64,000 nt of DNA from the NCBI GenBank assembly GCA_016875875.1, contig VGOP01000007.1, positions 62,001 through 126,000 of the forward strand. The letters are read 5' to 3'. Source of the stretch: Chloroflexota bacterium. Its GTDB lineage: Bacteria; Chloroflexota; Dehalococcoidia; GIF9; UBA5629. The position numbers were made by a program, and so were the translations under genes. Positions 27,163 to 40,894 of the stretch are shown one piece after another. Under the pieces are notes generated by a model. It was not told where the DNA came from and made no database searches. It saw nothing but the letters and a program-made list of their open reading frames with translations. How positions within the stretch are numbered: position 1 is the stretch's first letter; each line of letters opens with the position of its first letter.

Positions 27163-28560
27163 CTATTTCAATGTCAGGGTGAACTGCCACTGGTTGTATT
27201 GTGTTTCAATCATGTTCGATATCAGCACCTGGGAGAACTGACCGGAGTTACTCAGGGCTCGGACATAGTCCACGATTGTTGTCTCATCGGGGGATGTGCC
27301 GATTATGGCGAGGCTGGTGCTAGTATAGCTGATTGACTTCACTTCGATGATGCCAGGCAGTAGGCTGGTTACCTTGCTTAAATCACTATTTACCTTGGCT
27401 CGTTGTGTTTTGGCGTCATCCAGCGGCTGCTTGATGGCATCGCTGGCCTTTTTGGCTGCGGCAATTTGTGTCTGCAGTGTCTTGATTGCTGCCTCGGTTC
27501 CTTGTATAACCTGGGCCTGTGTTTGGGCATTGTTAACCTGAGTCTGCAAGGCCGTGGTCTCCCTGTATTGCTGCAGCGTTGATGTGCCAAAGAAGAAGAG
27601 CACGGCGATGGCTATAAGGATAAATGTCCAGGAAACGATTTGGATGGCGGGTAATGGCTTGGGCAGATAAGCTTCAGGCGTGACATTTATGTTTACCCTG
27701 GCTTGGCTGAAATCACCTCGTGCCTGCCTGAGAGCCAGGCCGATATTAGCCGCATATTCACTTGTAATTAGACTATCAGTATATGATAACAATTGGGGCA
27801 ATGGCTTAACTCGATACTCCAGTGTCCCTGCCAGCATATCACCTAGCTCACCGGTGACAAAAGCTGCCACGTTGCGGCTGATTTCACCTCCCTTGTGGCT
27901 TGAGTTATAGAAGGCAACTGTCTTTTCCAGCTCTTCTTTCACCTCGTCCACCTTATCATGTGGCGAAGTCGCGTCAGCCGGGAAGGGCAGACTGCGGAGC
28001 AATTCGGATATGCCGTCAACCATGACCACGATGTCAAAGCCATATGACTGGGCGTTTATTATTATGGAGTCTCTTTCGTCGGCAACCCTGGCCAGGGCCA
28101 GAGGTCTAGCCTCCATGGCTTCAGATTGAAGTCCCGCCTGGCGCAACGTGGCTAACATGGCATCAACCGTATTGCGGGGTAGGCCGATGAGACACAGGGT
28201 GGTCTCTATGTCCGACATGGATATTGCCTGCCAGGATGTATAAAGCTCGCTTAGGGACACCGGCATTAGTCTTTCCATTTCTCGCTTGGCGGCCTCAGCT
28301 AGCAAGGCTTTGGGCAGCCGAGGCAGATTGACTATGTGGTATATAGAGTGGATGCCGCTGATGCTGACCACAACCTTCCTTTCGGCAATGCCATGGGCTG
28401 CCATGAGCTCGCTGATACGCCGGCCAACGATGGCAGGATCGGTGATGACACCATCATGGACCAGGCCTGGCTCCAGCGGCAAGGTTGCTGCCGCTTCCAT
28501 CCGCTTTCCCTTGACCACCATCATTTTTATGGAGGTATCTTCAATGTCTAGTGTAACCAT
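27163..28560 (-). CDS. PilM-PilN fusion, type IV pilus inner-membrane platform
   Basis: 465 residues. The N-terminal 290 or so are PilM-like (actin-like ATPase fold): 'MVTLDIEDTSIKMMVVKG' (phosphate-1), 'KVVVSISG', 'KREMERLMPVSLSELYTSW', 'SIIINAQSYGFDIVVMVDG' (phosphate-2 region). A single membrane segment at about 308-332 ('IVSWTFILIAIAVLFFFG') and a coiled-coil rich in Gln/Ala follow, then a PilN-like periplasmic domain ending 'NQWQFTLTLK'. In most bacteria PilM and PilN are separate partners bound through the PilN cytoplasmic tail; here they are one chain. The PilO gene lies directly upstream. Confidence 0.8.
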   Translation of the reverse strand: MVTLDIEDTSIKMMVVKGKRMEAAATLPLEPGLVHDGVITDPAIVGRRISELMAAHGIAERKVVVSISGIHSIYHIVNLPRLPKALLAEAAKREMERLMPVSLSELYTSWQAISMSDIETTLCLIGLPRNTVDAMLATLRQAGLQSEAMEARPLALARVADERDSIIINAQSYGFDIVVMVDGISELLRSLPFPADATSPHDKVDEVKEELEKTVAFYNSSHKGGEISRNVAAFVTGELGDMLAGTLEYRVKPLPQLLSYTDSLITSEYAANIGLALRQARGDFSQARVNINVTPEAYLPKPLPAIQIVSWTFILIAIAVLFFFGTSTLQQYRETTALQTQVNNAQTQAQVIQGTEAAIKTLQTQIAAAKKASDAIKQPLDDAKTQRAKVNSDLSKVTSLLPGIIEVKSISYTSTSLAIIGTSPDETTIVDYVRALSNSGQFSQVLISNMIETQYNQWQFTLTLK

Positions 28561-28596
28561 AGCTGCTTATCCCTTTTCCCATTCCCTCTTGCCGTG

Positions 28597-28664
28597 TAGG
28601 GACAGACCTTTAGGTCTGTCCGCCAAATCGGACCCCCACGGACAGGTCTGAAGACCTGTCCCTA
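28597..28664. repeat. Palindromic repeat, TAGGGACAG...CTGTCCCTA family
   Basis: TAGGGACAGACC / GGTCTGTCC and GGACAGGTC / GACCTGTCCCTA, between pilO and pilMN inside the putative operon. A hairpin here could lower or separate expression of the two genes. Confidence 0.8.
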
Positions 28665-28689
28665 CGGAATTTTAGAGTAATCATGGCTA

Positions 28690-29256
28690 TTACTTACTGC
28701 TTTCATGACAGAGTACGTTAATTGTGACTGTGGCTCTATCTTCTACCCCTTCCTCTCCGGCGGATGTGAAAGTGAAGTGCTGGATCTGGGATGTTGGCAG
28801 CTTGTCATCCAGAGCCAGCAGGAAGTTCTGGAAATGAGGCATCTGTCCTTTGAGGCCCAGTTGAACGGTTAATGTTGCAGTTTTCGAAGTTGACACCTGG
28901 GTCTGCGTGACGTATATGGCGTTAAGCTCAGCCAGTTCCAGCAGGCTGTCGACTATTTCGGATGTCTGGGTGGTAGTGGGGAAAACGGCTTTAGCCGCCT
29001 CCATCTCTGCCGTAATTTGCGCTAGCTGGGCCTCAAACTTGTCTTTCGGTGTTTGCTCTACGGCTAGTATTTTCTGTAGGTTGGCTAGGGTGGCCTTCAA
29101 CTCAGTTTGCCTTTGTGGCTGTTGCTGATTTACCAACCATAGGGGGATGAGGATAATCAGGAAAATGCCGACAATCAGCACCAGCTGGCTTACTCGGCCC
29201 ACTTTGGGCAGCCTATCAAGGCCGCCTTTTTTCTTTTCTGGTTCAGGTTGAATCAT
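28690..29256 (-). CDS. PilO-like type IV pilus assembly protein
   Basis: 188 residues. Short cytoplasmic head, one membrane helix ('LVLIVGIFLIILIPLWLV', about 27-45), a coiled coil (about 48-100) and a ferredoxin-fold-like C-terminal domain ('LTVQLGLKGQMPHFQNFLLALDD'), the PilO layout. It should pair with the PilN half of the downstream fusion to form the platform around PilC. ATG 29256 has no clear ribosome site and lies only 6 bp after the stop of the toxin gene, suggesting translational coupling to the toxin-antitoxin pair. Confidence 0.75.
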   Translation of the reverse strand: MIQPEPEKKKGGLDRLPKVGRVSQLVLIVGIFLIILIPLWLVNQQQPQRQTELKATLANLQKILAVEQTPKDKFEAQLAQITAEMEAAKAVFPTTTQTSEIVDSLLELAELNAIYVTQTQVSTSKTATLTVQLGLKGQMPHFQNFLLALDDKLPTSQIQHFTFTSAGEEGVEDRATVTINVLCHESSK

Positions 29257-29262
29257 TACTAA

Positions 29263-29520
29263 CTACTTAGTTCTGTAGATTTCTCCTCTGTGACCGATGA
29301 ATTGAATCACGATGGTTTTGCCTTCCACCGAATAAACAGCTCTCCAATCTCCTATACGTAGTTTAAGCATTCCTTTAAACTCACCGCCAAGAGGCTCCGC
29401 GCTAACTTTCTCGAAATTACTGGCTAGCCAAGCAATCCGCCTCAAAATCCTTCTGGCTGTTAGCTTATCAATCTTTTCAAGGTCTTTTATTGCACCTTCA
29501 GTCCAGACAATCTTAACCAA
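29263..29520 (-). CDS. RelE/ParE-family toxin
   Basis: 85 residues, usual RelE size. 'TEGAIKDLEKIDKLTARRILRRI', 'PLGGEFKGMLKLRIGDWRAVYSV' and 'IQFIGHRGEIYRTK' match the conserved core of the superfamily (KLR-GDWR and HR-YR segments). The likely TTG start overlaps the end of the antitoxin frame by 8 bp. Family members are ribosome-dependent mRNA interferases or gyrase inhibitors. Its place within a pilus gene set is odd. Confidence 0.88.
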   Translation of the reverse strand: MVKIVWTEGAIKDLEKIDKLTARRILRRIAWLASNFEKVSAEPLGGEFKGMLKLRIGDWRAVYSVEGKTIVIQFIGHRGEIYRTK

Positions 29521-29701
29521 GTCTTTTGACTACCTCTTCATGAGCAATTCTCTTGGAGGTAGTTTTCAGGCGTTTCTCCAGTTTCTCTCCAAATTCGTGC
29601 TTGAGCTCTAAACCGGAATCAGGGTCTCCAAGGAACTCTAAGATTTTCTGTTCTATGAGAAGCTCCAGCTCGTCAATGCTCAGGTCTTTGACTTTTGCCA
29701 T
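29513..29701 (-). CDS. Antitoxin of the RelE-type pair
   Basis: 62 residues, mostly helical and charged ('MAKVKDLSIDELELLIEQKILEFLG' split by a turn at GDPDSG, then a basic helix). ATG 29701 follows CCGAGGAGATAAAC. The antitoxin-first, overlapping order is typical. No DNA-binding motif is evident, so autoregulation is uncertain. Named by position next to the toxin more than by sequence. Confidence 0.75.
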   Translation of the reverse strand: MAKVKDLSIDELELLIEQKILEFLGDPDSGLELKHEFGEKLEKRLKTTSKRIAHEEVVKRLG

Positions 29702-29810
29702 GTTTATCTCCTCGGGTTCCTTAAATTTGTTGGTGCATTCGTCAATCTAATCTAGTGTAACATTTTTGCTTTGAAAAAAACAGAGGTGTAAAGCCCGGCA
29801 CTACATGGTT

Positions 29811-29945
29811 GATTAAATCACAAATTTCAAATTCCAAGCTCCAAACAAATTCAAAATCGCAAACATCAATGACCAAAACACTCGGGGTTTTGAATTTGGA
29901 GCTTCGATATTGTTTGTGATTTGTGATTTAGTATTTGGGATTTCC
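29811..29945. repeat. A+T-rich dispersed repeat (copy 2)
   Basis: AAATCACAAATTTCAAATTCC... to ...GTATTTGGGATTT; imperfect inverted arms and clear similarity to the reverse complement of 21825-21950. The rest of the 318-bp spacer (29702-30019) contains only a GGCCTTTTAAGGTCG hairpin near 29958. Confidence 0.7.
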
Positions 29946-30019
29946 TATTCTGTAGCCGCGGCCTTTTAAGGTCGCCAGCAAACAAAGCGCCATTGGCAGA
30001 TATTTCCCACCCCAGAGAG

Positions 30020-31684
30020 CTACTTTATTATGTTGTACTTGAGCAGTGGCGGGCTATTGCCACCCTCGCCGGAGCCGCCGCCGCTACCGCTATCACCTGG
30101 AAAGTCAAGCCCCTCCTCAGGTACCCCTACCAGGTTGAGGGTACAGCCCGGCTGCAGGTTGACGTTGGCACTGCCGGCTATGGAGCCATAGAAGTTGGCA
30201 CTGGGCTGTAGATTAGTGGTGCACTTCACGGACATGAGAAAGATGAACTCCTGGCCGCCGGTGAAGCCCCGGAGCATGTACTGATTTGCGGTCTGGTCTG
30301 TAAACCCGGTTCCTGCAGGATTGGGAAAGGTAAAACCGGTAAAATCAGCAACCTCATATTTATTAGTCGATGTCAGTGTTTTGGTGGAGATAATGTCAGC
30401 ATCGGATATGGCTGCCAGCCAGTAGTTGGTTTTGGTAATGGCGATTTCCGGGACGCTGACCGGCTTCCAGCTGGATACGGTGATATTATCAGCGCAATCG
30501 ACTGAGCCGAGCAGGGTTCCGGGCGACCCATTATTATCAGCATAGAGCGCCACCTTGACATGGGCTGGTGGCGCTTCGGGGTCGGCGATATAGCACTTCA
30601 CCTGGATGCTGCTTAGCTTATCAATATTTTTGGATTCGAATTTAGACAGAAGGAATCTATCCTGATAGTCTGTAGTAGTCCCTGTATCCACGTCATCAGC
30701 GCCGAGCAAATAATTACCCTGTCCCAGTTTGGGCTGGAATTCGACATGTCCTACTCCAATAACGCAGCCCGGTCCGTGTAGCTCACAATCAGGGCCAAAA
30801 TAGACTGCACTGTTACTTGCATTCGGGGTTGTTGGGCATGGGTCTTGGTAGTATGTGGCGTAGATAGTCTGCCCGTCAAGGAGTAAAATAACGTCCTTGT
30901 CTGAGAAGTTGAACTTTCCATTGACATATATTGTCCCGCTCAGTTGGGCGTAGCCGCTGCCGTTAATGCTCAGGTCACCGGTGCAGTATAACCAGGGAAT
31001 AATTACAGGATTGGATGACGTGCCCCCGGAGACGGTGTAAGTGCTGGAGGAATATGGGTTGTCAGGGCAATAGTTCGCGGGGTCAGCACACACGTTGTCA
31101 CTAAAATTACTCAAGTAGTAGGCTGAAAGCTGCGCCTCTGTAGGAAAGGTTACTGTTCCTTGCCTAACCTCACCGGTTCTTACATCGGCGTTGTTGTCAT
31201 ATGTCCCTTGGTAGAGAATACCGCCATAGATTACATCGCTGGATTTGGTGGTTATGCTTCCCGAGCTGGTAATGGCGTGTTCGAACAGCCAGGAAAAATC
31301 GGAGCCGGCGACCGCCTGGGCTTCGATGACACTCTTGATTTCGCCGTTGAGCCTGGCGGTGGACCTGATGGTGTACAAGTCAACCTCCAGGTTCTGTAGC
31401 TCCACGGTTACTGTCATCCCATTCACCTCTTCAGTCAGGTCATACGAATTGTCACTGGCGAACAGGGCAATGCCATTTCCCACTTTCCAAAAGGCATCCA
31501 TTATGCCGGCATCAGCAGCATAAATCCCCAAGGTGTTCTCTACAATCTCACGGTTGGCAGTGAGATTGGTGGTCATAAGGCTGAGGACGGGTACCACGAG
31601 CAAACCTCCTAGCACCATCAAAACCAGCGCCATGGGCAATACCTGGCCGGACTCTTTTTTCAATATTCGTTTCAGCAATTTCAT
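30020..31684 (-). CDS. PilX-like large minor pilin / pilus-associated surface protein
   Basis: 554 residues from ATG 31684 (AAAGGAGGGG upstream). N terminus 'KKESGQVLPMALVLMVLGGLLVVPVLSLMTTN' resembles the PilX N-terminal class (a G-Q-V-L-P-M cleavage/membrane segment rather than G-F-T-L-I-E). The large exported region includes a polymer-forming, beta-helix-like stretch ('ITSSGSITTKSSDVIYGGILYQG', 'GDLSINGSGYAQLSGTIYVNGKF') and a Gly/Ser-rich tail ('GDSGSGGGSGEGG'). It probably sits at the pilus tip or surface. Co-oriented with PilB, PilC and the other minor pilins. Confidence 0.75.
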   Translation of the reverse strand: MKLLKRILKKESGQVLPMALVLMVLGGLLVVPVLSLMTTNLTANREIVENTLGIYAADAGIMDAFWKVGNGIALFASDNSYDLTEEVNGMTVTVELQNLEVDLYTIRSTARLNGEIKSVIEAQAVAGSDFSWLFEHAITSSGSITTKSSDVIYGGILYQGTYDNNADVRTGEVRQGTVTFPTEAQLSAYYLSNFSDNVCADPANYCPDNPYSSSTYTVSGGTSSNPVIIPWLYCTGDLSINGSGYAQLSGTIYVNGKFNFSDKDVILLLDGQTIYATYYQDPCPTTPNASNSAVYFGPDCELHGPGCVIGVGHVEFQPKLGQGNYLLGADDVDTGTTTDYQDRFLLSKFESKNIDKLSSIQVKCYIADPEAPPAHVKVALYADNNGSPGTLLGSVDCADNITVSSWKPVSVPEIAITKTNYWLAAISDADIISTKTLTSTNKYEVADFTGFTFPNPAGTGFTDQTANQYMLRGFTGGQEFIFLMSVKCTTNLQPSANFYGSIAGSANVNLQPGCTLNLVGVPEEGLDFPGDSGSGGGSGEGGNSPPLLKYNIIK

Positions 31685-31745
31685 CTTGCCCCTCCTTTAC
31701 TCGCATAGCGCTCTGTCCTATCGAGGGAGAGTGAAAAATGGGTTG

Positions 31746-32065
31746 CGGACAGACCTGAAGGTCTGTCCCTACATGTCTTCATTATTATTCTCTTCAGTAA
31801 TTTCATGATTTACCTCCTTAGAATCTCAGGTGGGGGTAACACAATGAGATTGCCACGTCCTTCTAAGGAAGGACTGGCAATGACAGGGAGGGAGTTTTTC
31901 ACCCACCAATGTAGCCCCGACCTTTTAAGGTCGCCCATTTCTCTTCTGTCATGGTGAGGGGCGTTAGCCCCGTGGCGATCTCGGCACAAGGCCAACGTCG
32001 GTGCCAGGCAGAGATTACCACGCTGCCTGCCACGCCTTTGGCTCGCAGCTTCGGCTGGCAATGAC
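31746..32065. repeat. Mosaic of palindromic repeats in a minor-pilin gap
   Basis: In order: GGACAGACCTGAAGGTCTGTCC (31747 on), a GAGATTGCCAC...GGCAATGACAG unit (31842-31886), a GACCTTTTAAGGTC hairpin (about 31919) and a full GTCATGGTGAG...GGCAATGAC element (31947-32065). The 427-bp spacer between the PilX-like and PilW-like genes has no gene. Confidence 0.75.
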
Positions 32066-32111
32066 TGTCGGTTATTACCAAACATCTTATCCCTCATCTC
32101 CTTCATGCTAG

Positions 32112-32624
32112 CTACGGGGGGACTCTCTGCATGGTTTCATATGTTCTTTCGACTGCTGCCTCGCCGTAAGTGGCTTCTATGGTAAGGATCAGCGTGCCGT
32201 TGTCGGAGTAATATTCCGCGCTGGCCACAGAAAGATATTGGGCTATCATGACTGGCTGCCCGCCAGTGTCATCCCGCATAAGCCTTTGCCCGCCGTCAGG
32301 CATATCTTGTAACTGGTAGACTATAGTCTTGTCGGGGGGTGTGATCTGCGGCTGTGTCAGTGTCAGGAATGTGGGGGTTCCCGGGTCTGAGTCGACCACT
32401 ATAGTCTGTGACATCAGGACATCGCGGGAGATCAAGTGGCCGGCGTTCTGCACCTGGCGTAAGGCGATAGCCCATTCGGTGCTCTTGGGGCTCAGTCTCA
32501 TCATGGTGATAATGGTCATTGAGGCAGCGCTGACGACTAAAGCGGCTATGGACATGGCGACCAAAAGTTCGATCAGGGTAAAGCCCTTCTCGGTTATTTT
32601 CAGTTTAATGTTTGTGCCCCACAT
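32112..32624 (-). CDS. Type IV pilus minor pilin, PilW/GspJ-like
   Basis: 170 residues with a class III signal 'ITEKG/FTLIELLVAMSIAALVVSAASM' and a C-terminal domain of PilW/GspJ type ('WAIALRQVQNAGHLISRDVLMSQTI'). The ATG at 32624 abuts a dispersed repeat beginning at about 32629 and no ribosome site is visible, so the repeat may have replaced the original leader; an internal start is not likely because the prepilin signal is intact. Probably part of a minor-pilin priming complex with the next two genes. Confidence 0.85.
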   Translation of the reverse strand: MWGTNIKLKITEKGFTLIELLVAMSIAALVVSAASMTIITMMRLSPKSTEWAIALRQVQNAGHLISRDVLMSQTIVVDSDPGTPTFLTLTQPQITPPDKTIVYQLQDMPDGGQRLMRDDTGGQPVMIAQYLSVASAEYYSDNGTLILTIEATYGEAAVERTYETMQRVPP

Positions 32625-32628
32625 ATTA

Positions 32629-32791
32629 GGAAATCCTAAATCCGAATTTCTAAACTCTAAACAAATTCAAAACTTCAAGTACCAATAACCAAAACATACA
32701 AAAAGCTGTCATGGCGAGGGGCGTCAGCCCCGTGGCGATCTTGGGGTGGCTGGAAAAGGCAATGAGATTGCCACGCTTGGCTCGCAATGAC
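32629..32791. repeat. A+T-rich repeat end plus palindromic element
   Basis: 32629-32700 is an A+T-rich repeat copy (AAATCCTAAATCCGAATTTC) and 32707-32791 is a TGTCATGGCGAG...CTCGCAATGACA element. Sits between two minor pilin genes of one operon. Confidence 0.7.
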
Positions 32792-32828
32792 AGGGAGGAA
32801 ACTCGCAATGACAGGGATGGGTATGTGT

Positions 32829-33266
32829 TCATTGTTTCGCCTTGTAGCCAACCATGATGAATGCTGTTTCTGTGTCATGGGTAACGGTGACTGTTATCTG
32901 CTGAAGTCCATCGTCGTTGGTAGGGTCATCACCTTTGGGATTTAGGCGTATAGCGGCGATGTCGATGTCATAGCCATCGGGGATGTCGGTCAGTTTTGCG
33001 GTCTGGTAATCCGGCGGGTTATTGGCATCATCATAGGGCCATCTCTTGATAGTTTCTAGCTGTGACTTAGCCAGGCTCTCAGCCGTTACGCTTTGATGGG
33101 TGACCATTACTCCTTTGGAGGAAATGGACATACCAAGGAGGAAAACGGCGGCCACGGCAGCTAAAATACCGAGAGCTACCAGGACCTCTAGTAAAGTTAG
33201 CCCTGGCACGCCGTTCTTAGCAGAGCAAAAGCCTGGCAAGGCCACCCGCTGCTGACTTCTGGTCAT
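32829..33266 (-). CDS. Type IV pilus minor pilin, PilV/GspI-like
   Basis: 145 residues. Long leader (about 19 residues) then 'GVPG/LTLLEVLVALGILAAVAAVFLLGM', a prepilin signal with Glu at position 5 of the mature form, as in PilV/GspI. 'VTAESLAKSQLETIKRWPYDD' is the typical early C-terminal segment of this group. ATG 33266 follows TTAGGAGGCAGG and starts 8 bp after the PilC stop, so it is translated with PilC. Confidence 0.87.
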   Translation of the reverse strand: MTRSQQRVALPGFCSAKNGVPGLTLLEVLVALGILAAVAAVFLLGMSISSKGVMVTHQSVTAESLAKSQLETIKRWPYDDANNPPDYQTAKLTDIPDGYDIDIAAIRLNPKGDDPTNDDGLQQITVTVTHDTETAFIMVGYKAKQ

Positions 33267-33274
33267 CCTGCCTC

Positions 33275-34480
33275 CTAACCCACCAGGTTCAGGGCGCCGT
33301 AGATGGGCATGAATACAGCTAAGGCGAGAAAGCCAACCATAATCCCCATGGCTATGGTCATCACCGGCTCGATCATGCTAATCATGGTCTGGGTCCGTCT
33401 TTCGGCTTCAATTTCAAAATTTTCAGCTACTATAATCAGTGAGTCATCCAGATTACCGGTTTCCTCGCCTACCTTGGTCATTTCCACCATTAGAGGCAGG
33501 AAAATCCGTTCACTGCTCATAGGTTTAGCTAGGCCCTGGCCTCTGAGCATGCCATGTTCTACTACACCCAAAGCTCTAGCTAACACTCTATTGCTGGTGG
33601 CTGAAGTGGTTAAGGTCATAACTTCAGGCAGTGGCAAACCAGCACGAAATAGCAGTGATAGGCTGCGACAAACACGTCCTAGCTCACTTACCTGAAGTAT
33701 GCGTCCGATTACGGGTATTTTCAGTAAAAGCCTGTCCCGCGTATAGCGCCCATTTGGTGTTCGAGCATATAAGAAGCCGACTATGAGCAGAGCGATGATA
33801 CCCACCAGTAGAAACAGGCCGTAGCTTCCAATGAAGGTCATTCCACCTACAAGCATCTTTGTGGGCAACGGTAAATCGCCGCCTAATGTTTCAAACATGG
33901 CGATCACTGGTTTCAGGAGGAAGCCAACCAGGAGAACGCCCACGACTATAGCTAGTGCCAAGACAACTGCGGGATACATTAATGCCTGCTTTATTTTACC
34001 GGCGGACGTGGCCTGACGCTCGGCATAATCGGCCAGGCTTCTGAGCACGGTTTCGAGCGAACCGGTTTGTTCGCCAACGTTAATCAGCTTGCAATAAAGG
34101 GAAGGAAAGACATTAGGATGCTGAGCTAGAGCCATTGATAATGATTTGCCACCACGAAGGTCGTTGATTACTGTTAGAAGCACCCCCTTAAGGCTTTTGT
34201 CTGTTGTTTGAGCTTCGAGGAGTTCCAGAGCCTGGATGATGCCAACTCCTGATTCCAAAAGCAGTGCCAGTTGCCGGCAGAAGGTAACCAGCTCGGACGG
34301 CTTGACTTTTGCCTGGAAAAGTCTCAATTGCTTGGGGACAAAGGTGGAGATAGGCTTAATGCTGACCACGCGGTAGCCGATGTTAGCCAGCATGTCTACA
34401 GCTGCTCTCTCATCCGCGGCTGAGACCTTTCCCTTGACTATTTGTCTGTCCCCGGTATAGCCGAGATAGGCATAGTCCAT
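33275..34480 (-). CDS. pilC: PilC/GspF-like type IV pilus platform protein
   Basis: 401 residues, normal size. Two tandem GspF domains (about 67-190 and 270-392) each ending in hydrophobic segments; motifs 'FCRQLALLLESGVGIIQALELLE' and 'VCRSLSLLFRAGLPLPEVMTL', plus 'GEETGNLDDSL'. N-terminal short domain 'YLGYTGDRQIVKGKVSAADERAA' as in archetypal PilC. It anchors the PilB motor at the membrane. GTAAAGGGTG precedes ATG 34480. It has its own promoter and box, so it begins a transcript running into the minor pilins. Confidence 0.93.
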   Translation of the reverse strand: MDYAYLGYTGDRQIVKGKVSAADERAAVDMLANIGYRVVSIKPISTFVPKQLRLFQAKVKPSELVTFCRQLALLLESGVGIIQALELLEAQTTDKSLKGVLLTVINDLRGGKSLSMALAQHPNVFPSLYCKLINVGEQTGSLETVLRSLADYAERQATSAGKIKQALMYPAVVLALAIVVGVLLVGFLLKPVIAMFETLGGDLPLPTKMLVGGMTFIGSYGLFLLVGIIALLIVGFLYARTPNGRYTRDRLLLKIPVIGRILQVSELGRVCRSLSLLFRAGLPLPEVMTLTTSATSNRVLARALGVVEHGMLRGQGLAKPMSSERIFLPLMVEMTKVGEETGNLDDSLIIVAENFEIEAERRTQTMISMIEPVMTIAMGIMVGFLALAVFMPIYGALNLVG

Positions 34481-34787: not shown

Positions 34788-37181
34788 TTAGTCACCTATG
34801 GAATAGGCATTGCGCAGCACTTCGTAAGGCGTGGTGATACCGGCTCTAGCCTTAAGCATGCCGTCTTTGGCTAGAGTTAGCATTCCTTCTTCGATTGCCT
34901 TGGCCCGAATTTCAGCGGCGGGGGCCCCGGTAACAATTGCCCGTTTGATTTCATCGCTCACTGTCAGGATTTCGAAAATGCCTGTCCTGCCCAGATAGCC
35001 GGTGTAAGTGCACATTTTGCAGCCAGCGCCAGAAGCAAATTCGCTGCGTTCCTCACCTGTTTCGCGGTGATAAGCTGCTTGCTCCACTATAGGCACGTTG
35101 GTCTTGCGGGCGCAATTAGGACAAACACGCCGAACCATTCTTTGTGCCACAATGCAGATGACTGCTGAGCATATCAGGAAGGGTTCAACACCAAGGTCAA
35201 TAAGTCGAAAGAGGACGCCTACAGTGTCGTTAGCGTGAACTGAAGATAGCACTAGATGCCCGGTGAGAGCAGATTGAGTGGCTATATCAGCCGTCTCGCT
35301 ATCCCGGATTTCACCGACTAGGATAACGTCAGGGTCAAGGCGGACGATAGCCCGCAGCCCACTGGCAAAGGTTACACCGGCCTTGGGATTTATTTGTATT
35401 TGGTTTACGCCTCGGAAACGGTACTCCACAGGGTCTTCAATGGTGATGATATTGCGGCCCACCTTATCCAAGGAGTTGACTGCGGCGTAAAGGGTGGTGG
35501 TTTTGCCGGCACCGGTAGGGCCGCTGAGTAAGACCATGCCATAAGGTGCCATGAGCATGCGCTCGAATCTTTCCTGGCTCTCAGGCAGGAAACCGAGCTG
35601 AGATAAAGACATGACTGCCATTGATTTGTCCAGAAGGCGAAGCACCGCCGTTTCACCGTGTACAGTGCTGATAGTGGCTACCCGGATATCAATATCTCTT
35701 CCTGTGGTGACAACTGAGAACTGGCCATCCTGGGGACGGCGTGGGTCAGCGATATTCATACCGGCGAGGATCTTAATACGGGAAATAAGTGGACCATGAG
35801 CGCCAACGGGCAAGGAGGTAACCTCATGAAGAATGCCATCAATGCGATAGCGGACACGGAGCCTGTCTATTTCAGGCTCGATATGGATGTCAGAAGATCG
35901 GGACTTCACGCCCTCTTCGACCAGCAGACTTAGAGCCTTGGCTACCGGGGAATCGTCAGCTACTACTTCGGCGGACCTATCTATAGGTATTACTTCGATG
36001 GATGGTGCCACCATGCCGAACTGTTTGGCTATTTCGCTAAAGGCTTTGTAGTTGAAATCAATGGCCTCCTGTATATCTATAGGTGTGGCTAACACCGCCT
36101 CAATTCTTCTCTTGGTCTTAGCGGCTAGGGCTTGTATAGCTAAAACATCGTCAGGGTTGGCCATGGCCACACGTAAGGTGTTGTCATCAACTGCGAGTGG
36201 TACTACATTATACTTTCTAGCCAGTTTTTCAGGGATTAAATTAAGTGCTTCTGGCGTTGGAGCTTGCGTCAGTACATTAAGTCGGGCGACGCCGGAAGGT
36301 GGTCCGGTAACCACTGGTTCAATGGGTATTGGTTTGGTCACTGGGGCCGGTGCTGGTTCGGTTACTTTGACTGTCGTCGGTTCTGTGCTTGACTGTGCAG
36401 GTGCGTTTTTGGCCATGTGGGGTTCATGGGTTGGTTTCTGTGGAGTTGCTTTGGCAACTTCGAAGACTGTTATCTGCTGTCTTTCAGCTAATTGCTTGGC
36501 TTCATGGCTGAGCTTAGGTGATGCCACGAGCACGCTGCGGATGATGCCAGTGTCCTGAGCTCTAGCGTCAAGCAAAGACACAGGCTCCATGTCTACCTCA
36601 TCGTTTGCAGACAGGAAATCTATGCTCACTGGATGTGTGATAAGGCCATCGTCAATGTAAGCCAATACATCAAAGGTATGCTCAATTCCTGATATACCTT
36701 TTACTTTGGCGTTTTCCTCGAGTCTATAACCATGCTCAGTTAAAGATTTAAGGAGTTGGGCTCTGCTGCTGAATTCAACTGGCTTATGGTGTTTAGCTGA
36801 TTGTGGTGGCGCTGTATTCAGGAAAGCGTCCAATCTATTGTTGTCAAAGACCTTTATCCGCTGTTGCTGGGCGAAATTGACGGCCATGGCGCCGAGTTTG
36901 GGTATAGCAATGAAGATTTTGTCAGGGATGTTGACATCATTAGCCTTTTCATCGAAATTGAATATAGCACCTAAGCCCACCTCTTCACGCTGGCTGACAG
37001 ATAAGCCAATGACAATATCATAGCTGAAAAAGCCAGCGTCCTTATGAGCCAGCATGGCAAAGGTATGCTCAGTTCCCGAGCTCCCTTTGATTTTGGCATC
37101 TGTGGTTATTTCGTAACCATAGTGCTTCAAGTGTTGTGCTAGCTGGCTCTCAAGTGCCTGCTCAGAATCCGCCTTTGCCAT
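34788..37181 (-). CDS. pilB: PilB-type assembly ATPase with two extra N-terminal Mrr-like domains
   Basis: 797 residues, about 230 longer than ordinary PilB. Residues about 8-115 and 135-240 are two copies of a domain starting 'LxxHGYxxxxxAKIKGSSGTEHTF' and ending 'PKLxxxAxxxAxxQxIxVF'; the pattern recalls PD-(D/E)XK (Mrr-like) folds without a full catalytic set. A Pro/Thr linker leads to an MshEN-like domain (about 295-385, 'LNLIPEKLARKYNVVPL'). The ATPase has Walker A GPTGAGKTTT (from residue 554), 'TIEDPVEYRF', Walker B 'DPDVILVGEIRD' and the zinc tetra-cysteine CPNC...CKMC. It powers pilus extension. Downstream of the first roadblock gene by 106 bp. Confidence 0.93.
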   Translation of the reverse strand: MAKADSEQALESQLAQHLKHYGYEITTDAKIKGSSGTEHTFAMLAHKDAGFFSYDIVIGLSVSQREEVGLGAIFNFDEKANDVNIPDKIFIAIPKLGAMAVNFAQQQRIKVFDNNRLDAFLNTAPPQSAKHHKPVEFSSRAQLLKSLTEHGYRLEENAKVKGISGIEHTFDVLAYIDDGLITHPVSIDFLSANDEVDMEPVSLLDARAQDTGIIRSVLVASPKLSHEAKQLAERQQITVFEVAKATPQKPTHEPHMAKNAPAQSSTEPTTVKVTEPAPAPVTKPIPIEPVVTGPPSGVARLNVLTQAPTPEALNLIPEKLARKYNVVPLAVDDNTLRVAMANPDDVLAIQALAAKTKRRIEAVLATPIDIQEAIDFNYKAFSEIAKQFGMVAPSIEVIPIDRSAEVVADDSPVAKALSLLVEEGVKSRSSDIHIEPEIDRLRVRYRIDGILHEVTSLPVGAHGPLISRIKILAGMNIADPRRPQDGQFSVVTTGRDIDIRVATISTVHGETAVLRLLDKSMAVMSLSQLGFLPESQERFERMLMAPYGMVLLSGPTGAGKTTTLYAAVNSLDKVGRNIITIEDPVEYRFRGVNQIQINPKAGVTFASGLRAIVRLDPDVILVGEIRDSETADIATQSALTGHLVLSSVHANDTVGVLFRLIDLGVEPFLICSAVICIVAQRMVRRVCPNCARKTNVPIVEQAAYHRETGEERSEFASGAGCKMCTYTGYLGRTGIFEILTVSDEIKRAIVTGAPAAEIRAKAIEEGMLTLAKDGMLKARAGITTPYEVLRNAYSIGD

Positions 37182-37287
37182 CTTTAATTTCGCCTCATCT
37201 TGAGTACAAGGGAATTTCAGACATGTAACCCCATGAACCCCAAGGTATGGGTTTCACAGGGTTTATCTTTTTGGTGACTATTTGGTT

Positions 37288-37713
37288 TCAGGGCACGGTT
37301 GTTCCCAAGCCATCCCTTCGGGGTAATGGCTCCACGCCTGGTAGAGCCTGCTCCAGTCTGGGGGCATAGTTATTGCTGGCCATGCGTGTCATACCCAGGG
37401 GAACAGTCTTTGGGGCATTCACTACCATGAAGCAGGCACCATCGGCTATCGGCTTAATCACCTGATAGCTGAAGGCGGTAGTGAATATGATATCATCGAG
37501 CTTGCCAAATCCGGAAGTCGACTGTTTGAATGCATCAATTGCCATATGAATCGTTTGGATGAATTGGCCATACGTTTCAGGAGGAATTTTATTCTCGGGT
37601 GACTCCCAGGATGAAAGCACCATCCCATCATTATCTGCTACCATCATCACCCAGGTTCCGGCCAGTCCACTTGCCATCTGGGACAATATTTCCTTCATCC
37701 TAATATCTGGCAT
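37288..37713 (-). CDS. Roadblock/LC7-like protein, copy 1
   Basis: 141 residues. 'GTWVMMVADNDGMVLSSWESPEN' followed by an amphipathic helix, 'LDDIIFTTAFSYQVIKPIADGACFMVVNAPKTVPLG' and a final helix fit the roadblock/LC7 (MglB-like) alpha/beta layout. Such proteins are small dimers that regulate Ras-like GTPases; in myxobacteria MglB-MglA sets pilus polarity. No MglA-like GTPase lies in this window. The C-terminal tail 'LPRRDGLGTTVP' is shared by all three copies. It has its own promoter and is directly upstream of pilB, so a role in regulating the motor is inferred. Confidence 0.7.
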   Translation of the reverse strand: MPDIRMKEILSQMASGLAGTWVMMVADNDGMVLSSWESPENKIPPETYGQFIQTIHMAIDAFKQSTSGFGKLDDIIFTTAFSYQVIKPIADGACFMVVNAPKTVPLGMTRMASNNYAPRLEQALPGVEPLPRRDGLGTTVP

Positions 37714-37734
37714 TAGACTTTACCTCTTAGTTCC

Positions 37735-37842
37735 AGTGTAAGCAAGTCAAAGTACGTTTGTCAAGCTCATCAATGAATTCTGCATAGCACTTTAGTACTA
37801 TATGGCACTTTTGTAAGGAATCATGAGCGGCGAATTAGTGCT
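37735..37842 (-). promoter_or_regulatory. Promoter and TAGTACTAA box of roadblock copy 1 and pilB
   Basis: Reverse strand TTGACA (37764-37759), 18-bp spacer, TACACT (37740-37735), only 21 bp from the start codon. TAGTACTAA at 37800-37792 lies 36 bp upstream of the -35. A degenerate CACTAATTCGCCGCTCATGA block follows upstream (about 37838-37819). The whole arrangement is repeated at 39299-39400. Confidence 0.6.
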
Positions 37843-37979
37843 GTAAATGTGGGATAGCGAAAAGATGATAATGCCAATAGTCAATAAGAGAAAATACTGA
37901 GAAAGGACAAAATACACGAGGTACTTCTGGCTCAACCCGACCGATGCCTAGGCTTGTTTTGCTGCTGTTTTGTCTGGTT

Positions 37980-38420
37980 TCAGGGCACGATTGTTCCCAG
38001 GCCATCACTTCGTGGCGATGGTGCGTGGCCCGGTAGAGCCTGTTCCACTCTAGGAGCATAAATGTTGCACTGCGTACGTATTTCACCCAGAGGCATGTTC
38101 CTTGGGGCACTTACTACTATAAAGCAAGTTGCGTCAGCTATCGGTTTAATCAACTGATAAATAAGGGTGGTGCTGAATATTATATCATCGAACCTGGTGA
38201 AACCGACAGGTGACTGTTTGAATACATTCATTGTGGCGTTAAATATTTGGATGAACCCGCCCAGTCCTTCAGGGGAAACTTTATTATCGGGCGACTGCCA
38301 AGATGCAAGCACCATGCCATCGGTATCTACCACTGTTATCATCCAGATTCCCCCCAGTCCCCTTGATGTCAGTACCCTTGCCATTTCGGACAATATGTCT
38401 TTCATGTTGGCATCTGGCAC
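37980..38420 (-). CDS. Roadblock/LC7-like protein, copy 2
   Basis: 146 residues, GTG start at 38420 after CGGAGGTAACC. Same fold and order as copies 1 and 3 ('GGIWMITVVDTDGMVLASWQSPDN', 'FDDIIFSTTLIYQLIKPIADATCFIVVSAPRNMPLG', tail 'SPRSDGLGTIVP'). It has a small insertion near residue 15 ('VLTSRGLG') and is the most divergent of the three. It likely shares a transcript with copy 3, which is upstream. Confidence 0.7.
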   Translation of the reverse strand: MPDANMKDILSEMARVLTSRGLGGIWMITVVDTDGMVLASWQSPDNKVSPEGLGGFIQIFNATMNVFKQSPVGFTRFDDIIFSTTLIYQLIKPIADATCFIVVSAPRNMPLGEIRTQCNIYAPRVEQALPGHAPSPRSDGLGTIVP

Positions 38421-38477
38421 TACGGGTTACCTCCGTTCTGTCTGTTTCTGATGTTGGATTTTTCTCAGGCGTTACGT

Positions 38478-38519
38478 GAACTGACTGTCAACTGTTTGCT
38501 CGGAATCCGCCTTCGCCGT
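38478..38519 (-). pseudogene. Fossil of the pilB start, duplicated with a roadblock gene
   Basis: The reverse strand reads TAKADSEQTVDSQF, against MAKADSEQALESQL at the pilB start; the ATG is changed to ACG. Similarity continues into the upstream leader, where CTCAAAATGAGGCGAAA (about 38540) matches CTCAAGATGAGGCGAAA before pilB. It stops being recognisable after 14 codons. Confidence 0.75.
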
Positions 38520-38624
38520 TCTTGTTTCGCCTCATTTTGAGCACAAGACTATTTCAGGACGCATACTATATAAACCCTGATGTATAGGTTGCACAGATTT
38601 TGTCTTGTTGCTGCTTGTTTGGCT

Positions 38625-39050
38625 TCAGGGCACTACTGTTCCTAAGCCATCGCTTCGGGGCAACGGTTCCCGGCCTGGTAGAGCCTGCTCCAACCTAGGA
38701 GCAAAATTGGTGCACGCCATGCGTATCATACCTAGAGGCACGCTCCTGGGGGCACTCACAAATAGAAAGCAAGCCCCCTCAGCTATTGGCTTAGCCAGCA
38801 TATAGCTGAATTGCGTGGTGTATGTGACATCATCGAGCTTGGTGAATCCGACAGTCGACGCCTTGAATGCATTGATAGACGCGTTAATTATTTGAATGAA
38901 CCCACCGAAGGCTTCAGGGGAAACTCTATTTTCGGGTGACTCCCAGGATGAAAGCACCATGCCATCGCTGTCGGCTACCATTACCACCCAGGTTCCTCCC
39001 AGCCCCCTTGCCATTTCGGACACTAAGTCCTTCAATGAAGTACCTGCCAC
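38625..39050 (-). CDS. Roadblock/LC7-like protein, copy 3
   Basis: 141 residues, GTG start at 39050 behind GAAAGGAGATAAG. Very similar to copy 1 ('GTWVVMVADSDGMVLSSWESPEN', 'LDDVTYTTQFSYMLAKPIAEGACFLFVSAPRSVPLG', tail 'LPRSDGLGTVVP'). Its promoter and box also match copy 1, and a relic of the pilB start lies just downstream of it, so it belongs to a duplicated [pilB start - roadblock - promoter] unit. Confidence 0.7.
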   Translation of the reverse strand: MAGTSLKDLVSEMARGLGGTWVVMVADSDGMVLSSWESPENRVSPEAFGGFIQIINASINAFKASTVGFTKLDDVTYTTQFSYMLAKPIAEGACFLFVSAPRSVPLGMIRMACTNFAPRLEQALPGREPLPRSDGLGTVVP

Positions 39051-39298
39051 TACGACTTATCTCCTTTCTCTCTATTCCTGATGTGGGAAAAGAGTCTATG
39101 GTCAATGTCTTGCTTTTTATTAGGTTCTATGTGGTTCCCTATTTCCTCACCTCCTTATTGTGCCGGAAGTCTTGCGTTGCTGATAAGAGCCTATATCAGA
39201 TAGTCTCCGACACCTACGGCTCCTCTTTCACCTCTTATGCGAACTCGATATTTTCAGCCATCCTCTCTTTATGGAACGCAATTATATTACTTGACTCA

Positions 39299-39400
39299 AG
39301 TGTAAGCATGTCGCCGTACATTTGTCAAGTTCACCGATACGTGCCATATAGGACTTTAGTACTATATGGCAATTTTGTAGCAATCGTGAGCGGTGAATTA
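39299..39400 (-). promoter_or_regulatory. Promoter and TAGTACTAA box upstream of roadblock copy 3
   Basis: Reverse strand TTGACA (39328-39323), 18-bp spacer, TACACT (39304-39299); TAGTACTAA at 39364-39356, again 36 bp above the -35, followed upstream by GCGCTAATTCACCGCTCACG. The leader to the gene at 39050 is about 240 nt and contains no gene that I can see. Confidence 0.6.
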
Positions 39401-39532
39401 GCGCTATGAAAGTCAGATAGTTAAACAGGCAACGATATTATAAAGATGGCATAGAGTTGCGCTATTTATACTGGCGAAGGTCTTGATTTGGAAAATGAGC
39501 GGGCCACGAGCACTGGTTGATATAGGCATATT

Positions 39533-40894
39533 CTATGCTAGTTTGGCTGGGTTGTTAACTTCAATAACTTTGATTCTTTGATATTGGGCAAACTGTTTGG
39601 CTGCATGGCTGAGCTTGGGGCAGGCGAGCAAAAGTTTATCGTGGATGCCTACATCGTAGGCTTTGGTATCAAATGAAGACGCGGCATCAAAGCTGACCTC
39701 ATCTTTGGCTACTAGAATACTTATGCCTAAGGTGTGGTTTATGATGCCATCGTTGTGGAAAGCCAGCATATCAAAGGTATGCTCGATTCCAGACCTGCCT
39801 AAAATCTTGGCTTTTTCCTCGAATTTGTAGCCGGAGTTTTTTAAGTGTTGTAAAAGCTGGGCTCTGGTTTCGAAGATGAAAGGCTTGCCGCTTGATTTCT
39901 TTTGGGTTGATGTGGGAGGCGAATCAAGGAGGGTTTCCAGGTCTTTTTCCTCAATGACTTTAATCCTTTGCTGCCGGGCAAATTGTCCAGCTTCAGAGCT
40001 GAGTTTGGGCATAACCAGCAAAACCTTGTCGTGTATACCCAAATCATATACCTTGTTATCGAAAGCGAAAACCTCAGCTAAGCTTACTTCCTGTCCCTGG
40101 CTATCAACTAGTATGCCGATGCCGAGCGTGTAAGTTATTAAACCATCGTTTCGTTGTGCCAGGATGTCTATTAAATGTTTAGCTCCTGATTTAGTTGTAC
40201 CGTTGACCTGGGCACTTTCAACCACCTCATAGCCCTGGTTCTTAAGAAAGTCTACGAATAGTGGTCTTTCGCTAAGCTCAAATACAAGCCGGCGTTTCAT
40301 CTTCTCATTGAGGCGATAGGAATAGAGGTTGGTCTCTTTTGCCTCATCCCCAGAGAAGAAGAATGAGCATTGGAGGCACTCCCAGCTGGGTGTAGCTTCT
40401 TTTGATATACCACCGCATTCACGGCATTTGTAATTGATGCCTAGACTCTGATAGTCAGTGCCGAGGAATCTAAGTTCCAGTTTGCATTTAGGGCAGATGT
40501 ATTTACCACTATCCACATAGTCATCTTCTAGGCTGTTGTTGCAGCAGGTGAAGTGTTCCAGGACTCGTCCCTTGGCTATGTTTCCGGAGCCACACTTGGG
40601 ACACCCAAGCACGGGTTTCAAACTCGGAGACTGGCACCGGGGACAAAAGGAAATATTTTGATGGGACTGCCTCTCAAGAATAGCTTCATTAGCCAGGAAT
40701 TCTAAAGTTGTTACAGCTTCCCGAGTTGTCGACCCTAGGAGGCTTTCTGCTTGGGGGTAGGCGAAACCGTCCTTGGTGGCTAAGTTAATGGTCGGACTAA
40801 TCTCGCTGATATTGCCTACCAGAATCTCTTTGACCAACTCCATGGCCTTAGAGCCCTGTTTTGTTATTCCGATTACGTCAATGACCTCGACCAT
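39533..40894 (-). CDS. Zinc-ribbon protein with two PilB-type Mrr-like domains
   Basis: 453 residues. Residues 1-75 look like a winged helix. Residues about 83-205 hold six or more Cys pairs (CPRC, CPKC, CC, CPKC, CREC, CLQC), a multi-ribbon region perhaps related to the TackOD1 output domain (low certainty). Two copies of the domain found at the PilB N terminus follow: about 212-320 ('LKNQGYEVVESAQVNG', 'PKLSSEAGQFARQQRIKVIE') and about 345-450 ('LKNSGYKFEEKAKILG', 'GIEHTFDMLAF', 'PKLSHAAKQFAQYQRIKVIE'). Own promoter with CTAGGACTAA box. Probably a DNA- or partner-binding regulator communicating with PilB. Confidence 0.7.
   Translation of the reverse strand: MVEVIDVIGITKQGSKAMELVKEILVGNISEISPTINLATKDGFAYPQAESLLGSTTREAVTTLEFLANEAILERQSHQNISFCPRCQSPSLKPVLGCPKCGSGNIAKGRVLEHFTCCNNSLEDDYVDSGKYICPKCKLELRFLGTDYQSLGINYKCRECGGISKEATPSWECLQCSFFFSGDEAKETNLYSYRLNEKMKRRLVFELSERPLFVDFLKNQGYEVVESAQVNGTTKSGAKHLIDILAQRNDGLITYTLGIGILVDSQGQEVSLAEVFAFDNKVYDLGIHDKVLLVMPKLSSEAGQFARQQRIKVIEEKDLETLLDSPPTSTQKKSSGKPFIFETRAQLLQHLKNSGYKFEEKAKILGRSGIEHTFDMLAFHNDGIINHTLGISILVAKDEVSFDAASSFDTKAYDVGIHDKLLLACPKLSHAAKQFAQYQRIKVIEVNNPAKLA

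Follow-up and report, generated by a model that had tools for sequence, protein, structure and literature searches.

The DNA examined here (the window) is a stretch of 64,000 nucleotides from a Dehalococcoidia genome of the phylum Chloroflexota (GenBank assembly GCA_016875875.1, contig VGOP01000007.1, positions 62,001 to 126,000). It contains a type IV pilus (pil) operon with the gene of the extension motor ATPase PilB, and upstream of it on the same strand lies the gene of a zinc-ribbon protein of the TackOD1 family. The initial annotation of the window had claimed four copies of one domain, two at the N terminus of PilB and two at the C terminus of the zinc-ribbon protein. The open reading frames (ORFs) and all four copies, called B1 and B2 in PilB and Z1 and Z2 in the TackOD1 protein, were confirmed. 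The copies, of about 110 residues each, shared 37-56 identical residues per about 101-106 aligned (37-55% pairwise), and their alignment scores were 28-54 standard deviations above those of shuffled sequences (500 shuffles each). The two motifs reported for the domain, a GxEHTF-like start and a PKLxxxAxxFAxxQxIxV end, are both real, the former in the fuller form SGxEHTFD; however, the domain starts about 25-30 residues upstream of it, and in Z1 this motif is degenerate (SGAKHLID). A further motif, FDxKAYDxGI, was also recognized.

Subsequently, the fold of the domain was examined. Pfam Mrr_cat (PF04471) matched the window PilB above its cut-off (E 1.5e-6, 28.7 bits vs 21), with a weaker match to NA-iREase1 (PF22722, an inactive restriction endonuclease; 0.024). 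It also exceeded the cut-off in other carriers (41.8, 48.0, and 46.6 bits in loci L122, L123, and L065, respectively), and was not listed at E ≤ 1 for the TackOD1 protein of the window. In AlphaFold models of the two carriers, whose input alignments comprised 37 and 20 sequences, both pairs followed one secondary-structure order (helix, three strands, helix, strand, helix, strand). The predicted local distance difference test score (pLDDT) was mostly near 90 for the pair of the TackOD1 protein and 63-88 for that of PilB. Both models matched AF1548 (1Y88; E 2.9e-6 and 3.2e-5), that of PilB with a root-mean-square deviation of 1.9 Å over 106 columns, and the best sequence match, though weak, was likewise AF1548. 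The Mrr-like fold that had been suggested for both proteins is thus borne out.

We then mapped the catalytic residues by aligning the sequences with AF1548. At the catalytic Glu position, 142 of 142 copies had Ala, Gly, Ser, Val, or Ile, and none had E, Q, or D; the catalytic Lys was retained in one copy and the first Asp in 133. ExK was replaced mostly by [AG]-x-[GD], and the D...(E/Q)xK arrangement of an active Mrr-type nuclease was found in none of the 142 copies, in agreement with the earlier suggestion that the domain is inactive. Judged from the sequences and predicted structures, the shared domain is an inactive Mrr-like PD-(D/E)XK nuclease fold in both carriers. Despite the catalytic loss, SGxEHxFD and FDxKAYDxGI are kept, suggesting that something in the domain is still under selection. 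The pairs are net acidic (mean isoelectric point about 5.5-6.1, net charge averaging about -2 to -8 by group). In a genome-wide profile search at E ≤ 0.01 the domain was confined to PilB and the TackOD1 protein, and no defence family in PADLOC matched the pair.

The zinc-ribbon protein had been regarded as a DNA- or metal-binding partner, and the metal-binding part of this idea agrees with its TackOD1 domain (PF18551, 127 bits vs a cut-off of 32). All 11 Cys and the one His are present (C84, C87, C98, C101, H114, C117, C134, C137, C157, C160, C173, and C176) and are conserved in alignments. A PDB sequence search with this protein gave just weak matches to ribosomal zinc ribbons. In the passages on TackOD1 (Thaumarchaeal output domain 1; arCOG06883) in PMC4858521, the domain is placed in thaumarchaeal type IV pilus loci, and those in PMC5847659 list the archaeal architectures TackOD1, REC-TackOD1, and REC-wHTH-TackOD1 (wHTH, winged helix-turn-helix) and call its role as an output domain obscure. 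Two of the proteins we found, in loci L123 (699 residues) and L126 (785 residues), are REC-TackOD1-Mrr-Mrr proteins with Pfam matches above cut-offs. The former is flanked by a KaiC-like ATPase, a GAF histidine kinase, and an OmpR-type regulator. The features expected of a two-component output, a REC fusion and a kinase nearby, are both seen in L123 and partly in L126, and the window protein is without REC. The signalling link proposed for the pair therefore has a counterpart in L123, where REC-TackOD1-Mrr2 (Mrr2, the tandem pair) adjoins a histidine kinase. In the same locus, the KaiC-like ATPase at the head of this row (1186-2406) has double zinc ribbons. Separately, two Cys pairs, 84/87 and 173/176 in window numbering, are both missing from the proteins of L123 (4638-6737) and L126 (3884-6241) and from the contig-truncated L049 protein (2-1714); the joint loss suggests that they form one shared zinc site.

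Table 1 Features of the window around the two carriers of the Mrr-like pair
Feature	Position	Strand	Basis
TackOD1-Mrr-Mrr protein, 453 residues	39533..40894	-	ORF and Pfam; 39 homologous proteins in related loci
TackOD1 zinc-ribbon domain, residues 15-195, five CxxC and HxxC	40310..40852	-	PF18551, E 7e-37
Mrr-like copy Z1, residues 207-323	39926..40276	-	Copy alignment, boundaries, structure model and fold search
Mrr-like copy Z2, residues 341-452	39539..39874	-	Copy alignment, boundaries, structure model and fold search
Three tandem roadblock/LC7-like genes, between both carriers	37288..39050	-	Sub-threshold Pfam matches
PilB with N-terminal Mrr pair, 797 residues	34788..37181	-	ORF, Pfam (MshEN and T2SSE), TIGR02538
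Mrr-like copy B1, residues 8-121	36819..37160	-	Copy alignment, boundaries, structure model and fold search
Mrr-like copy B2, residues 137-246	36444..36773	-	Mrr_cat PF04471, 1.5e-6; alignment, structure model and fold search
Pro/Thr/Ala-rich flexible linker, Mrr pair to MshEN	36285..36443	-	Translation; pLDDT about 30 over residues 250-300
MshEN (ND1) domain, lacking ND0 (TIGR02538 positions 1 to ~55)	36048..36284	-	PF05157; TIGR02538 match from position 56
T2SSE ATPase core	34812..35960	-	PF00437, 7e-124
PilC	33275..34480	-	PF00482
Remaining pil operon genes: prepilins, PilX-like, PilO-like, PilM-PilN fusion	27163..33266	-	

The window PilB has T2SSE with MshEN and lies in a pil operon with PilC and PilM/N/O, as expected for a PilB ATPase; its TIGR02538 score of 505.8 bits is under the equivalog cut-off of 675.65. 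TIGR02538 aligned only from position 56 in this protein and from position 51 in one PilB from the organohalide respirers (family f16, below), which is consistent with a missing ND0. One clade in a tree of the PilB core (support 100) is without the helical N-domain (ND0) that outgroup PilBs have, and the Mrr pair is present in most members of this clade. It splits into PilBs with the pair (Mrr2-PilBs) and a subclade in which lean PilBs adjoin a TackOD1-Mrr2 gene; in this subclade the window PilB is the sole carrier of a pair. Tree supports are Shimodaira-Hasegawa-like approximate likelihood ratios (SH-aLRT) from short searches, and the domain trees have few columns. In the latter, a single branch (97) separated all PilB pairs from all TackOD1 pairs, and position-1 and position-2 copies formed largely separate groups, a single split being not rejected (approximately unbiased (AU) test, p 0.41). 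The simplest reading would be that the ancestor had both carriers and that the PilB pair was lost in relatives with TackOD1-Mrr2 directly upstream. Recent local copying of the neighbour's pair into the window PilB was also considered; it is not favoured, as all PilB pairs including that of the window are on one side of the branch, yet it was not rejected (AU p 0.196).

Comparison of the named loci and sampled genomes gave five arrangements, (i) to (v) ARRANGEMENTS. In (i), TackOD1-Mrr2 lies directly upstream of a lean PilB of about 520 residues at the head of pilB-pilC-prepilins-pilO-pilMN-pilT, and none of these PilBs, in nine named loci, has the Mrr pair. The gap between the two genes is 9-27 bp in seven of the nine and 167 bp in L096, and the apparent overlap in L095 arises from the chosen start codon. 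In (ii), found in ten loci, TackOD1-Mrr2 is tail-to-tail with the pilT end of an Mrr2-PilB operon, and in (iii), found in four, it is 0-108 bp downstream of pilT on the same strand. Arrangement (iv) is Mrr2-PilB alone, and (v) is that of the window, TackOD1-Mrr2 followed by three roadblock-like genes and Mrr2-PilB. In L116, TackOD1-Mrr2 is divergent from a prepilin peptidase gene, and at least one copy (L104) has no pil genes within 9 kb.

Among 197 Dehalococcoidia genomes, 26 had the Mrr pair and 11 a full TackOD1, always as TackOD1-Mrr2; a PilB of the ND0-less clade was present in all of these 11 and in 72 of the 197 overall. Many of the genomes are metagenome-assembled, so that a missing partner may be a gap; this limit leaves the complete genomes of f16 and the nine intact operons of arrangement (i) unaffected. 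All 52 named loci were from Dehalococcoidia or unspecified Chloroflexi/Chloroflexota. The sample of the phylum outside the class gave a single marginal match to the pair (5.5e-4, G213) and no TackOD1 above the cut-off. Complete genomes of f16 encode Mrr2-PilB and no TackOD1, and genomes of this family have 19-30 reductive dehalogenase matches each. By this gene content the family is the organohalide-respiring Dehalococcoides/Dehalogenimonas group, from which we infer the genus names. Two Mrr copies were found in 29 PilBs and in 40 TackOD1 proteins, and four in one PilB, in which two pairs precede MshEN (L065, 1570-4866, minus strand); odd numbers came from frameshifted or contig-truncated genes. 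In the literature searched, no paper joined PilB and Mrr with the other terms of the search.

In known motors, the ND0/ND1 region is the c-di-GMP (cyclic diguanylate) site of MshE, where MshEN binds the nucleotide (PMC5013675), and the N-terminal domain of Xanthomonas citri PilB binds the regulator PilZ there (PMC8389850; review, PMC11656802); in MshE-type ATPases the c-di-GMP site lies in ND0. For an Mrr pair that stands in the place of ND0 and recurs on the TackOD1 neighbour and, in some loci, on a response-regulator output, a docking module of the motor is the best explanation. We therefore consider it to be a regulatory docking module without catalytic activity that serves the extension motor of the type IV pilus, with a probability of roughly 60%; its binding, target, signal, and direction are what we infer. 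The dead-nuclease pair is probably able, as such a module, to link two-component signalling to the pilus. In one Dehalococcoidia PilB clade lacking ND0, the inactive pair, placed ahead of ND1 on a flexible linker, would tune motor activity by binding the ND1 domain, the platform, or a small ligand at that place. The paralogous pair at the C terminus of the TackOD1 protein, whose gene heads the pil operon or adjoins pilT, or which is itself a response-regulator output, would deliver a metal- or phosphorylation-dependent input to the same site. PilB might thus have the module in its own chain, obtain it from a neighbour protein, or, as in the window, do both. More tentatively, the pair may have replaced ND0, with the cis form (PilB) and the trans form (TackOD1, some response regulators) exchangeable, which would place pilus extension under direct phosphorelay or metal-responsive control.

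The initial annotation had assumed that the shared domain serves to pair these two proteins, and had itself named homologues with only one carrier as evidence to the contrary. Such homologues were common. Pairing is not supported because f16 has Mrr2-PilB without TackOD1 and nine loci have TackOD1-Mrr2 with an Mrr-less PilB; a PilB regulatory module, in cis or from a neighbour gene, is a better reading. A homotypic adaptor, in which the TackOD1 and PilB pairs bind each other and recruit the zinc protein to the motor, would suit the eight sampled genomes, including that of the window, that encode both carriers, and PD-(D/E)XK domains often dimerise. It accounts for these genomes only, leaving aside the nine loci and the organohalide respirers, and we regard it as unlikely.

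Slightly less likely still is a ligand sensor, in which the former active-site pocket (the conserved D, SGxEH, and FDxKAYDxGI) would bind a small molecule (for example a nucleotide second messenger) and so take over from c-di-GMP binding at ND0. The retention of D in 133 copies and of FDxKAYDxGI without catalysis, together with the absence of ND0, fits this proposal, and the fold matches include the cyclic-oligoadenylate CRISPR nucleases Can2/Cdn1. In Can2/Cdn1, the ligand sits in a separate CARF domain, and the conserved residues are possibly structural. A relaxed form of the c-di-GMP receptor motif (two 24-residue RLGxx...LxxxLxxQ) was absent from 34 of 34 Mrr-PilB rows, that of the window included. 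A simple trade of c-di-GMP control for Mrr control was considered separately and rejected, as GGDEF counts did not differ as expected between Mrr and non-Mrr genomes and full motifs are missing from most outgroup PilBs.

DNA handling by pili had also been proposed. A pair binding DNA for pilus-mediated uptake or for control of pil transcription draws on the nuclease-derived fold and the zinc-ribbon-like TackOD1, but is improbable because the active site is lost and the pairs are net acidic, and they are fused to a membrane-platform ATPase. A functionless remnant of a duplicated nuclease gene caught by the pil genes is the least probable. Losses of the pair (G101, G178, and the PilBs of arrangement (i)) would fit it, but 13 genera of the class have kept both copies intact, their motif residues being 80-99% conserved, also in complete genomes of 1.4-1.9 Mb.

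Several observations weigh against the docking module. The REC-type TackOD1 proteins are not beside pil genes on their own contigs. The PilBs of G178 and G101 belong to the clade without ND0 and have neither Mrr nor TackOD1, which indicates that PilB can dispense with the module. GGDEF proteins are still encoded where PilB has the pair, and most outgroup PilBs of the class are without the full c-di-GMP motif too. Furthermore, apart from the Mrr pair and MshEN, the PilB model is of poor quality, also in the ATPase core.

Among the other genes of the window, none of the three small genes reached the cut-off of roadblock/LC7 (PF03259; E 0.013-0.036 or no match), and hence they are called roadblock-like only. 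Two of them are 60-67% identical to the first, and a PDB sequence search gave no relative. A distant counterpart is found next to the four-copy PilB of L065 (4902-5324), the only other carrier with one nearby; PMC4858521 reports roadblock proteins close to archaeal type IV pilus loci. PilM and PilN form a single fused 465-residue protein (27163-28560, minus strand). No pilT was found within the pil operon of the window, and a PilT-like gene is present elsewhere in the genome (G000:C1:167105). In family f46, low-complexity linkers of 140-400 residues join the Mrr pair to MshEN (L060, 429-3839; L062, L064, and L069). The PilB pair of G113 is broken by an in-frame TAA (L070, 10308-12617, minus strand), from a pseudogene or an assembly error.

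If the docking module is correct, control of the pilus motor would become a candidate function for TackOD1 and for a non-cutting nuclease-derived domain, accessory genes of archaeal and bacterial type IV pili would be tied together, and a motor ATPase would be seen exchanging its regulatory N-domain. Since PilB of organohalide-respiring Dehalococcoidia bears the module, the system is open to testing.

Finally, the locus was compared with known systems. It resembles TackOD1 (PF18551) of Thaumarchaeota in the five CxxC and HxxC, the type IV pilus loci, and the REC-TackOD1 regulators, whereas the proteins here are bacterial and have a C-terminal inactive Mrr pair, a fusion absent from the archaeal descriptions in the relevant passages of PMC5847659 and PMC4858521. 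Like the N-terminal regulatory domains of PilB/MshE (MshEN; X. citri ND0/ND1-PilZ-FimX), the window PilB has an N-terminal extension and ND1 (PF05157) in the position of regulatory input; unlike them, it lacks ND0 and the RLGxx...Q motifs and has a nuclease-fold pair at its N terminus. Mrr/AF1548 PD-(D/E)XK proteins (PF04471, 1Y88) and NA-iREase1 (PF22722) share the fold and the residual Asp, with PF04471 above cut-off in several carriers; here, ExK is replaced and the domain is a tandem pair on pilus rather than restriction or NACHT proteins. A weak fold match was also obtained with the RNA polymerase RPB5 jaw, a nuclease-like fold used without catalysis, in an unrelated context.

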